A stretch of DNA of 22,247 nucleotides from a virus, in IMG/VR virus record IMGVR_UViG_3300037488_000813, positions 1-22,247 of that record. One strand, given 5' to 3'. Both the position numbers and the translations under genes were made by a program. Below, in pieces: positions 347-4,800 of the stretch. The notes beneath the pieces are model-generated. The model was given only the letters and a program-made list of their open reading frames with translations. It did no database searches and was not told the DNA's origin. The first letter of the stretch is position 1; each line of letters opens with the position of its first letter.

Positions 347-673
347 ATGTCAGATAAGCCTAAATGTGGATGTGGAAAATCTCAAGATCCTGATGGATTT
401 TGTGATGGATCTCACAAAAATAATGTAGATCAAGTAACATTTAAAGAAACAAAAATTTATTCTTTTGGAGATATCTTAGTAGGATTAAATACTGAAGAAT
501 TACCAGAAGGTGCTGAATTAGAAGTAAAACAAAAATTTTCTGAGATTACAGAAATTTTAAAAAGTACTTATACAATGTCAACACAATCTCCAGTTAAAAG
601 TTTATTGTTTGATCATGCAGTTGGAGAAATACTAAATGCTCAAATGTCTGTTGTTAAATTATTAAAACTATAA
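347..673 (+). CDS. CDGSH-type iron-sulfur protein with C-terminal helical region
   Basis: The 108-residue product begins with a CDGSH iron-sulfur motif: C7, C9, C19 and H23 in CGCGKSQDPDGFCDGSH. In known CDGSH proteins three Cys and one His bind a redox-active, pH-labile [2Fe-2S] cluster. The spacing between the second and third Cys is one residue longer than the usual C-x-C-x2-[ST]-x3-P-x-C pattern. The motif sits at the extreme N-terminus. Residues 50-108 look like two amphipathic helices of unknown role. There is no signal peptide or membrane segment, so it is probably cytoplasmic. It is the first gene after a strong promoter, and its stop is 2 nt before the GroES-like gene, so the two are probably co-expressed. 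Cluster binding is well supported; the phage role is unknown. Confidence 0.8.
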   Translation: MSDKPKCGCGKSQDPDGFCDGSHKNNVDQVTFKETKIYSFGDILVGLNTEELPEGAELEVKQKFSEITEILKSTYTMSTQSPVKSLLFDHAVGEILNAQMSVVKLLKL

Positions 674-675
674 AT

Positions 676-963
676 ATGAATCCATTTAAAACATTAAGAG
701 GAAGAAGAATACTTATTGAAGTTCCTGTAAAAAAAGAATCAGTAATTACATTATCTGAAAAAGATAAAGATGCTTTAATGTATGAAGCAATGAAACAATG
801 GAATAGATTAACTGTATATGCTATAGGTGATAAAGTAGAAGAGATTGCTGTTGGAGATTCAGTATATATTCCTGTTCCACAATTAGAACAAGCAGAAAAA
901 GTTGACATTGATGGTAGTGTAAAACTAATGTTTAATGAAATGGATATAGCAATAATATGGTAA
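676..963 (+). CDS. GroES-like co-chaperonin
   Basis: The 95-residue product has the length and pattern of GroES (Cpn10). An N-terminal stretch (residues 5-18, KTLRGRRILIEVPV) resembles the KPLxDRVLVxx start. A polar segment at 19-40 lies where the mobile loop should be and holds the hydrophobic patch V23-I24-T25-L26, like the IVL tripeptide that contacts GroEL. Residues 46-66 (TVYAIGDKVEEIAVGDSVYI) match the G-x-V-x-A-V-G ... V-x-V-G-D-x-V core, and the end FNEMDIAIIW matches the terminal strand of the family. Phage versions such as T4 gp31 replace host GroES in folding capsid protein. It overlaps the next gene by 7 nt. The homology is seen by eye only; a different small beta-barrel is the main alternative. 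Confidence 0.6.
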   Translation: MNPFKTLRGRRILIEVPVKKESVITLSEKDKDALMYEAMKQWNRLTVYAIGDKVEEIAVGDSVYIPVPQLEQAEKVDIDGSVKLMFNEMDIAIIW

Positions 964-1322
964 ATATAACAGATGATCTTCCATATTTTTGTGGAAAAAC
1001 AAGTACTGATAAAATTAATTCTAAAGAATTATCTAAAGAAGATATAGATAAAAGAATTAAAAATACTTTAGACTCTGAACATAATAAAAATTATGACTTT
1101 AGAAAAGATATTCCACCATTTGAATCACGTCCTAAATACTATGGTGGAAAAGATTCAACATATGAAGTTTTTAATGTGCTAGAAGCTTGGAAGTTAGATA
1201 AAGATTTTTACTTAGGAAATGTAATAAAATATTTAGCTAGAGCTGGTAAAAAAACTTTTAACAATAAAGAAGATTTAGAAAAAGCATTAGTATATTTACA
1301 ACGTAGAATTGATACTTTATGA
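957..1322 (+). CDS. DUF3310 family protein
   Basis: The 121-residue product ends in a DUF3310-type domain. Residues 40-121 contain KYYGGKDSTYEVFNVLEAW, then DKDFYLGNVIKYLARAGKK, then EDLEKALVYLQRRID. This order (H/Y-Y, E-V-x-x-V-x-x-A-W, F-x-L-G-N-V-I-K-Y-x-x-R-A-G-K-K, D-L-x-K-A-x-x-Y-L) is characteristic of this phage family, which I recall being linked to T7 gp1.7-like nucleotide-kinase proteins. Residues 1-39 are polar and probably a flexible extension. The start overlaps the GroES-like gene by 7 nt, and the stop overlaps the next start as ATGA. Family membership is strong; the biochemical role is uncertain. Confidence 0.82.
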   Translation: MVNITDDLPYFCGKTSTDKINSKELSKEDIDKRIKNTLDSEHNKNYDFRKDIPPFESRPKYYGGKDSTYEVFNVLEAWKLDKDFYLGNVIKYLARAGKKTFNNKEDLEKALVYLQRRIDTL

Positions 1323-1510
1323 ATTATTTAATAATGTTATTTATTTTAAGCATAGCATGTTTGTTATGGATTATAGGAAATTCTTTTAGAGGACCTTTAT
1401 ACAATAGTGTTAAAGACTCATATGAATTAGATCCTGAAGGTGATATTATTAGTTCATATTTTATTATTGCAGCACTTCTATTAATTTTTATAGCAGGAAC
1501 ACTGATATAA
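1319..1510 (+). CDS. small two-TM membrane protein
   Basis: The 63-residue product has two hydrophobic segments, about residues 3-20 (YLIMLFILSIACLLWIIG) and 45-62, separated by a short polar loop with several acidic residues. This predicts a helical hairpin in the inner membrane. The start codon overlaps the DUF3310 stop (ATGA), so it is translationally coupled, and the intrinsic terminator follows directly. No family is recognised. A superinfection-exclusion or host-takeover role is possible for such a protein but nothing in the sequence shows it. Confidence 0.6.
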   Translation: MNYLIMLFILSIACLLWIIGNSFRGPLYNSVKDSYELDPEGDIISSYFIIAALLLIFIAGTLI

Positions 1511-1521
1511 TGTCAGTTATT

Positions 1522-1550
1522 AATCTCTATTAATCATAGAGATTTTTTTT
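1522..1550 (+). terminator. intrinsic terminator
   Basis: AATCTCTAT (1522-1530) and ATAGAGATT (1536-1544) form a perfect 9-bp stem around a 5-nt loop. A run of eight T spans 1543-1550. It begins 11 nt after the last stop of the upstream cassette and so closes that transcription unit before the tail genes. Confidence 0.85.
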
Positions 1551-1882: not shown

Positions 1883-4800
1883 TGCAAGTAATAGATAAAG
1901 TTGGAAAATTATTAACCAGTGGTAGTGGTGGTGGTGGAGGAGCTCCTTCAGGGCCAGCTGGTGGAGATTTATCTGGTGTTTATCCTAATCCTTCTGTATT
2001 ATGGAATAATGGACTACCAACATATGATTTATTATATTATCCTTTAACTGGTAATCCATCAGGATTTGTAACAGCATCTGCATTAACTCCATATTTAACA
2101 ATTACATTAGCAGCATCAACCTATTATCCAATACCTACTGGTACAGTATCACAATATATAAGAGGAGATGGTACATTAGCTACATTTCCAACAATACCAA
2201 GTTTTACACCATCTGCTTTAACTAAGGTTGATGACACTAATGTTACTCTTACATTAGGAGGTACACCTGCTACAGCATTGCTTCAATCAACTAGTTTAAC
2301 ATTAGGATGGACAGGAACTCTAGCAGACTCAAGAATAACTTCTGCAACTACCTGGAATAATAAAGTAACATCTTTATCTTCGGGTACAGGAATTTCTATA
2401 GGAGGTACAACTACTGTACCAATTGTGACTAATACTGCTCCAGATCAAACTGTAGTACTTACTCCATCAACAGGAATATCTGTAACAGGTACTTATCCAA
2501 GTTTTACTATAATTAATACTGCTCCATCTACTACTTCAGGTACTGTAACTAGTGTAGCTACAGGTACAGGTTTAACAGGTGGTACAATTACTTCTGCAGG
2601 AACAATAGCATTAAATACTAAATTATCTCCTTTAGATAGTTTAACAGGTAATGCTTTAAAACTAGTAAGAGTTAATACAGGAGAAACAGCTTTAGAATAT
2701 TTTACAGCTCCTTATGGAACAGGTACAGTAACTTCTATAGCAACAGCCGGTCTAATTTCAGGTGGAACTATTTCTACAACAGGAACTATTACAACTTTGA
2801 TGACTACAAATAGGTTAGTTGGTCGGGGTACTGCATTATCAGGTGTAATGGAAGAAATTACACTTGGTACAAATCTTTCACTAACAGGTACTACTTTAAA
2901 TGCAATAAATAGTGGTGGTACTGTAACTAGTGTGGCAGCATTAACTTTAGGTACAACTGGTACTGATTTATCTTCTACTGTAGCTACAGGAACAACTACT
3001 CCAGTAATTACATTAAATGTACCCACAGCTTCTGCATCTAATAGAGGAGTTTTATCTACTACAGATTGGTCTGCTTTTACTGCTAAACAAGCTGCATTAA
3101 ATGGTACTGGTTTTGTTAAAATTATAGGTACTGTTATTTCTTATGATAACTCTACTTATTTAACAACCATATCAGGTATTACCGCAGGAGGTGAATTAAG
3201 TGGAACTTATACAAATCCATCTTTAGTCAATTCAGCAGTAATAGGAAAAGTTTTAACAGGAGTTAATATTACAGGAGGCACTATTTCAGCTACTGATTCT
3301 ATCTTAATTGCCTTTGGTAAAGTTCAAAATCAAATTAATGGTTTAATTGGTGGTTCAACTTATCAAGGTACTTGGAATGCTTTAACTAATACACCTCCAT
3401 TAACAAGTAGTGTTGGAACTTCAGGATATTATTATATTGTAAATGTTGCAGGTTCTACTAACTTAAATGGAATTACTGATTGGAACATTGGAGATTGGGC
3501 AATATTTAATGGTGGTGTATGGCAAAAAGTAGACAATACTGATGCAGTAGTTTCTGTAAATGGTTTTACAGGTGCTGTAAGTTTAACAACTACAAACATT
3601 GCTGAAGGTACTAATTTATATTTTACTAATGTTAGAGCAATTTCTGCTATTTTAACTGGTTATGTAAGTGGTGCAGGAACAATATCAGCAACTGATACTA
3701 TTTTAAGCGCAATACAAAAACTTAATGGAAATATAGGATCAATTGTTTCAGGTGTTTCTAGTGTATTTGGAAGGACTGGTGCAGTAGTTTCAGTTAACGG
3801 AGACTACACAACTTCACAAGTAACAGAAGGTACTAACTTATATTATACAGATTCAAGAGCAAGATTATCTAATTCATTTGTTGCAGGTTCAGGAGCATAT
3901 AATTCTACAACAGGAGTTATCACAATTCCAACTAACAACAATCAAATTACAAATGGTTCTAACTTTATAATCTTAACTTCTTTAAGTGGAGGTACGGGAA
4001 TAAACTACAACAATACAACAGGAGTAATTACTAATTCTGCTCCAGACCAAACTGTTTCTTTATCAAATGGTGCAGGAATATCAGTTACAGGAACATATCC
4101 TTCTTTTACAATAGCATCTACAATCACTCAATATACAGATGCTTTAGCTAGATTAGCTATTAGTTTAACTACTACAGGAACATCAGGTGCAGCTACATAT
4201 AATTCTACAACAGGTGTTTTAAATATTCCACAATATTCAGGTGGTAGTGGAATGGTTTATCCTGCAGCAGGTATTGCACTTTCAACAGGTTCAGCTTGGG
4301 GAACTTCAATAACTAATAATAGTGCAGATTGGAATACTGCGTATACAAACAGAATAACAAGTTTAACAACAACAGGATCAGGTGCTGCCACTTTAGTAAG
4401 TAATGTATTAAATATACCTACACCTCCAACAGCTGCATTTACATCATTAACTGTAACAGGATCTTCAGGATCTTCAACATTGTTATCAGGAGTATTAAAT
4501 GTACCTACATATACTTTAACAGGATTAGGTGGACAACCTTTAGCTACTAATCTTACTTCATTAGCAGGATTATCTTATGCCTCAACTTCATTTGTAAAAA
4601 TGACAGGAACAGGTGTATTTGCTCTTGATACTAATACATATATAACTGGTAATCAAACTATTACTTTATCTGGTAATGTTACCGGAACTGGAACAACTTC
4701 AATAACTACTACAATAGGTGCAAATGTAGTTACTAATGCTATGTTAGCACAGGTTGCAACAAGTACAATTCAAGGAAGAGTAACAGCAGGCACGGGTAAT

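Follow-up and report, generated by a model that had tools for sequence, protein, structure and literature searches.

A four-gene cassette and its boundaries

The window, by which we mean the whole stretch of DNA analysed, is a 22,247-base virus fragment and the source record of a cassette of four genes, all on the plus strand. Gene 1 (347-673, 108 aa) encodes a hairpin protein of the Acb2/Tad1 kind that bears a micro-CDGSH tag at its N-terminus, gene 2 (676-963, 95 aa) a predicted co-chaperonin of the GroES/T4 gp31 type, gene 3 (957-1322, 121 aa) a protein with DUF3310 at residues 58-115, and gene 4 (1319-1510, 63 aa) a putative membrane protein with two hydrophobic stretches. Genes 1 and 2 are separated by a 2-nt gap, genes 2 and 3 overlap by 7 nt, and genes 3 and 4 overlap by 4 nt. 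The identification of these parts is very probably correct.

The window's terminase matches those of Flavobacterium psychrophilum phages, Bacteroides phages, Kehishuvirus, Kolpuevirus and Bohxovirus. We take the last three to be crAss-like genera, and because of these matches the window is described here as crAss-like-related; no near-identical cultured phage was found for it. Relatives were drawn from IMG/VR independently with gene 1, with gene 2 and with the gene 1 alignment. The contigs compared are metagenomic, and the locus lists contain near-copies. In each of eight long contigs (80-122 kb) the cassette is single-copy and lies 10-20 kb upstream of the terminase. No RNA families were found within positions 1-2400 of the window. 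The gene upstream of the cassette (3-284), truncated by the start of the window, has a conserved HExxH motif (HETMH here, HEAMH in contig L057) and no Pfam match; it may encode a small zinc peptidase conserved 5' of the cassette.

A promoter-like element of the Bacteroidota type, TTTG-N19-TATATTTG, lies at 295-325 on the plus strand and is that strand's sole match to TTTG-N17-23-TAnnTTTG in the window. Of 85 distinct relatives, 20 have the pattern ahead of gene 1, as against 0.5% of 90-nt control windows; these 20 are near relatives and not independent cases. The -7 element is retained in further relatives, and elsewhere the upstream coding gene directly precedes gene 1. The preliminary description had called the cassette self-contained, with a consensus Bacteroidota promoter in front of it. 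The pattern is present, but it is kept only in near relatives, and "self-contained" is therefore a lineage-specific property.

The other boundary is an intrinsic terminator at 1522-1550 (plus strand), AATCTCTAT-TAATC-ATAGAGATT-TTTTTT, with a perfect 9-bp stem, a 5-nt loop and a T6 tail; like the promoter, it was recognised as a sequence pattern. Its stem has only 2 G-C pairs (-7.4 kcal/mol), and a consensus terminator scanner missed it because that scanner demands 3. Divergent relatives keep a terminator in this position, immediately behind gene 4. In contig L101 a U-A pair of the window's stem has become C-G, with both sides changed, and many divergent relatives have stems of 11-14 pairs there, for example AAATCCCTAG..CTAGGGATTT; many close relatives have weak A-T stems only. 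A stem follows gene 4 in 51 of 70 distinct downstream regions, a count in which one group's longer-loop stems escaped the stem filter, versus 19% of random segments.

The co-chaperonin is the next gene after gene 1, on the same strand, in all 93 of the testable distinct loci listed, a locus counting as testable when its sequence continues for 1 kb or more beyond gene 1. At the thresholds used, DUF3310 is also present in 82 of these 93 and the gene 4 membrane family is kept in place in 71. The order hairpin, GroES, DUF3310, membrane is conserved among relatives, co-occurrence of the four is far above chance, and the four-gene block is real and conserved. The overlapping or 2-nt-spaced genes and the perfect 9-bp terminator of the preliminary description are thus confirmed, as is the co-occurrence that it proposed to look for in related genomes. 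A few phages have extra genes interposed between genes 1 and 2. Several relatives (L006, L009, L029) have one accessory gene inserted at this same junction, an FkbM methyltransferase (PF05050) in L006 and a 2OG-oxygenase-like gene in L029.

The four genes could be mere neighbours, with an order inherited in one phage clade and products that work separately. The cassette-bearing contigs checked do all come from a single clade, within which TerL identity is 75% or more, and the junction of genes 1 and 2 tolerates the FkbM methyltransferase, the 2OG-oxygenase-like gene and other insertions. However, order, overlaps and terminator persist while hairpin identity drops to about 50%, and the flanking upstream genes are exchanged while the cassette persists. 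We consider mere adjacency a possibility of some weight, though not a probable one, and prefer to read the cassette as a module.

Genes 2, 3 and 4

Gene 2 has no Pfam match, Cpn10 included, and a tblastn search of cultured phages with this GroES-like gene found none. Seven of 11 gene 2 relatives match phrog_3188, co-chaperonin GroES (best 4.2e-6). When a template-free model of gene 2 was searched with Foldseek, the best PDB matches were GroES/Cpn10 structures (best E 1.1e-3, probability 1.00, TM 0.5-0.63), and T4 gp31 (1g31) was among the matches, also with probability 1.00. The predicted fold supports gene 2 as a Cpn10/gp31-type co-chaperonin. It resembles T4 gp31 and GroES in this fold and in size, and a low-confidence segment (residues 20-26) at the appropriate position may be a disordered mobile loop with a hydrophobic GroEL-binding tripeptide. 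It differs from them in lying outside Pfam Cpn10 and in a helical insert (residues 28-41), longer than theirs, that follows the putative mobile loop.

Gene 3 matches DUF3310 (PF11753) with E 7.6e-11 and 42.4 bits versus a cut-off of 24, and has a PHROG "nucleotide kinase" match of 3.8e-15; no PDB relative was found. DUF3310 is a domain of several phage "nucleotide kinase" families, that of T7 gp1.7 among them. The gene 3 protein is short (121 aa), has no separate kinase part, and its function is putative. The two hydrophobic stretches of gene 4 were read from the sequence of its 63 residues. A co-chaperonin, a DUF3310 protein and a membrane protein had all been named in the preliminary description and all three hold, the first by predicted fold though without Pfam support.

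A hairpin domain in gene 1

When gene 1 relatives were aligned, they were found to share a conserved C-terminal domain of about 80 residues behind variable N-termini of three types: a CDGSH stretch, a short MEEx start, and the extension MTQHQLDIWxKLTxESETNLEARIKFDKYM. In the window the domain covers residues 32-108 (440-670, plus strand), and F40, G41, K61, S85, F88, H90, G93, E94 and Q99 are invariant in its core. The preliminary description had seen gene 1 as a CDGSH protein and missed this domain, which is a hairpin of the Acb2/Tad1 type.

Direct sequence searches of Pfam, PHROG, NCBIfam and PDB with gene 1 gave nothing usable, and neither the window protein nor its close relatives matched PF24729 (Acb2_Tad1_hairpin). 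The hairpin core does match hypothetical proteins of other phages: EcP1 gp26, Providencia phage PS3 Stuart_43, Aaphi23 ORF38, and proteins of DSL-LC05 and Pmp11. Those of EcP1, DSL-LC05 and Pmp11 exceed the PF24729 cut-off, as do proteins of FCL-2 and elemo reached from EcP1; those of PS3 and Aaphi23 are weaker. Profile-profile comparison of the core with a PF24729-type set gave a probability of 98.2 (E 2.9e-14) over the full domain, and 97.0% (8e-11) with a smaller set. A strict set made of FCL-2 and elemo alone, which the core itself never matched, gave 91% and a score of 38, versus at most 3.8% and a best score of 18 for 40 column shuffles, and 0.1% and a score of 9 for the co-chaperonin family as a control. 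The same kind of comparison with T4 Vs.4 alone gave no signal, and the gap between the hairpin core and the superfamily is bridged only by FNPS-type intermediates.

The AlphaFold2 model of gene 1 has helices at residues 40-45, 56-77 and 82-107, with a core pLDDT of 86-97, so that the core is modelled as a short helix followed by an antiparallel pair of long ones. Acb2 has been described with the same arrangement (PMC10419184). A Foldseek search of the hairpin model against the PDB gave no significant match. Homology with the superfamily is supported by the controlled profile comparison together with this Acb2-like architecture, and makes the gene 1 core a divergent member. It shares with the phage anti-immunity proteins Acb2 (T4 Vs.4, Pseudomonas phage p26) and Tad1 the helix layout, a helix-1 Lys and a helix-2 basic residue. 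It differs in falling below Pfam detection, in the residues replaced at the Tyr11, Arg67 and Thr74 equivalents, in its CDGSH or NLEAR N-terminal tags, and in its fixed place beside a co-chaperonin.

The NLEAR stretch is a second mobile N-terminal extension (MTxHxLxIWxKLTxESETNLEARIKFD), found on the hairpin in many phages and on the co-chaperonin in others (L100-L103, L111 and L053-L079, L140, L149-L161). Contig L150 has tandem hairpin paralogues at 2775-3053 and 3301-3648, one with the extension and one without.

The Acb2 sponge is a hexamer that sequesters cyclic nucleotides. We take Tyr11, Lys26, Arg67 and Thr74 of Acb2 to be its ligand-contacting residues, with numbering verified on the PDB sequence. 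In the alignment Tyr11 corresponds to Gly46 of gene 1, Arg67 to Leu86 and Thr74 to Gly93; Lys26 (K61) is the sole one of the four retained, and Arg85 is matched by K104. Because these ligand residues are mostly replaced, nucleotide sponging is a lead and not a result; the hairpin may equally well bind some other ligand, or have no sponge role, as bind cyclic nucleotides. The chance that the hairpin works as a sponge seems to us a little below even.

Alternatively, the hairpin may have left sponge function and become an oligomeric assembly adaptor, a partner of the co-chaperonin in handling a head or portal protein, which would make the cassette a morphogenesis unit. Such a role would fit the unbroken adjacency of hairpin and co-chaperonin in the 93 loci listed, and the replacement of the Acb2 ligand positions while the nine core residues stay invariant. 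In the unrelated phage DSL-LC05 (L166), the interval from TerL to portal contains a PF24729 gene some 0.8 kb away from GroES, and the copies in Aaphi23, Pmp11 and PS3 are beside terminase or internal virion genes; these placements fit a morphogenesis role as well. On the other hand, gp31-type co-chaperonins require no partner, and the core is at about 50% identity where TerL is at 75-85%, the faster change expected of an arms-race protein. We also know of no PF24729 member that acts in assembly. An assembly adaptor is, on balance, possible but less likely than not.

The CDGSH tag

In the window, residues 1-28 of gene 1 (347-430, plus strand) form an exchangeable micro-CDGSH tag, with the motif C7-x-C9-x9-C19-x3-H23 at 365-415. 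Over its 17 residues the motif reads C-x-C-G-K-[ST]-x4-G-F-C-D-G-S-H, and the three Cys and one His are invariant, in this order, in all tag-bearing sequences. The iron-sulfur CDGSH protein of the preliminary description is there as a motif in the first 28 or so residues, but gene 1 scores 11.3 bits against Pfam CDGSH (PF09360), below the cut-off of 29.5. Tags in general cover only the 17-residue end of that profile, at 11-20 bits.

The ligands in mitoNEET are Cys72, Cys74, Cys83 and His87 (PMC9490426). The canonical motif is C-x-C-x2-(S/T)-x3-P-x-C-D-G-(S/A/T)-H, and mitoNEET also uses a beta-cap (PMC9737848). The tag does not follow this motif, in that x4-G replaces x3-P. It has the three Cys and one His, their order and the CDGSH signature in common with CDGSH/NEET proteins (mitoNEET, CISD3; PF09360). 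Unlike them, it consists of the cluster-binding loop only, with no beta-cap and with the rest of the 39-residue domain missing; its spacing is x9 and not x8, and the micro version serves as a tag or as a stand-alone peptide of 22-45 aa. The tag probably binds metal.

The tag is present in 16 of 76 distinct hairpin cores. One and the same core is found with it in L037 and without it in L117, and other cores that are 97-99% identical have opposite tag states. The hairpin and co-chaperonin tree implies at least five tag changes, two of them forced by well-supported branches, and in L107 and L114 a core from one clade is preceded by a leader and tag that belong to a different one. Within gene 1 tags, pN/pS is 0.27, which indicates purifying selection. 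Separate translation of tag and hairpin was considered and rejected: there is no ATG, GTG or TTG between them, and the tag is in frame. A tblastn search for the tag in cultured phages found none, its 26-aa query being at the method's limit.

The preliminary description had suggested an iron-sulfur, redox-sensing partner in a host-takeover or capsid-folding unit. In favour of gene 1 as a [2Fe-2S] redox sensor that controls such a unit are the CDGSH order of the three Cys and one His, the constrained tag sequence and mitoNEET chemistry (PMC9490426). But the tag is optional, missing from most relatives and also from a core identical to one that has it, so the unit cannot depend on it. With the longer spacing, Gly in Pro's place and neither the rest of the domain nor the beta-cap that mitoNEET uses (PMC9737848), this reading is very improbable.

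A proposed accessory module

We propose, with a probability of roughly 0.6, that the cassette is an accessory module with an Acb2-like hairpin, an exchangeable metal tag, a co-chaperonin, a DUF3310 protein and a membrane gene, conserved in one clade of Bacteroidota phages, most of them environmental, that are related to crAss-like phages. It would presumably be expressed as one message that ends at the conserved terminator. In this lineage a CDGSH-type peptide of about 25 residues, closest to free-standing flavobacterial micro-CDGSH peptides, has been fused to the N-terminus of the hairpin, and it comes and goes without change in the hairpin. The hairpin would oligomerise and act as a small-ligand sponge or as an adaptor, with a specificity other than that of Acb2, and the tag, with its metal ([2Fe-2S] or Zn), would modulate the hairpin and not be required for it. 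The co-chaperonin may cap host GroEL and fold the capsid protein as gp31 does, the DUF3310 protein may act in nucleotide metabolism, and gene 4 would act at the membrane.

With gene 1, the Acb2/Tad1 superfamily reaches into a large group of environmental phages related to the crAss-like ones and becomes tied to a capsid co-chaperonin. The tie is of note because phages without acb2 escape CBASS via major-capsid mutations (PMC10419184).

Micro-CDGSH peptides beyond the cassette

A degenerate x9 DNA pattern was found in at least 120 stretches of the viral collection, where about 0.05 would be expected by chance (an estimate, 2^-41 x ~1e11 positions). Most of the viral stretches listed are free-standing ORFs of 22-45 aa, on more than 100 viral contigs, and some are C-terminal tags, for example on an XkdF-like phage protease (PF14550). 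The canonical x8 spacing was also found, as phage ORFs of 24-45 aa. Bacterial x9 peptides (L286-L405) occur in Flavobacteriaceae, in Paenibacillus, where they are 25 aa long, and in Opitutae, where they are tandem-duplicated and 54-63 aa long. Among the matches listed, the cellular sequence that comes nearest to the window's tag is MSDKPKCGCGNTQNPNGFCDGSHNNQID, on the Flavobacteriaceae contig L354. Cellular micro-CDGSH sequences have a pN/pS of 0.18 and phage ones of 0.30, and the ratio stays below 1 even at columns that the search pattern did not fix, a sign of purifying selection. Predicted micro-CDGSH peptides are thus common in phages and bacteria, a class shorter than the usual gene-calling length; the literature searched contained no paper describing CDGSH proteins of phages, CDGSH together with YceI, or small CDGSH proteins from Bacteroidetes.

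In flavobacteria the micro-CDGSH gene is directly downstream of YceI (PF04264) in about 57 of the 60 YceI-bearing loci listed, and upstream of an NADPH-dependent FMN reductase (PF03358) in at least 15 loci. Since mitoNEET carries electrons from FMNH2 to ubiquinone (PMC9490426), the position of cellular micro-CDGSH genes beside YceI-like and FMN-reductase genes makes a specific redox role testable. A broader reading, which we offer as speculative, is that these widespread 22-45-aa metalloproteins are minimal electron carriers or metal knuckles, and that phages take them up and append them, interchangeably, to other proteins, in this case to an Acb2-like counter-defence protein produced alongside a capsid co-chaperonin.

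Examples of free-standing viral micro-CDGSH peptides are L174:1880-1930 and L200:34-84 (within L170-L285). Their same-strand neighbours include an M15-peptidase endolysin (PF08291) at 53 or more loci and a holin-like membrane protein at 51 or more. The motif is also seen on unrelated proteins in viral contigs L193, L210 and L219 and genomes L385, L304, L395, L313 and L328: at the C-terminus of the XkdF-like protease, of an apparent ribosomal protein bS16 and of an "MGCSNCSTC" protein, and at the N-terminus of YceI-like proteins. A gammaproteobacterial tandem CDGSH protein (L301, ~920-1160) has x9 in its first motif and x8 in its second, and x9 therefore occurs in a longer CDGSH protein too.
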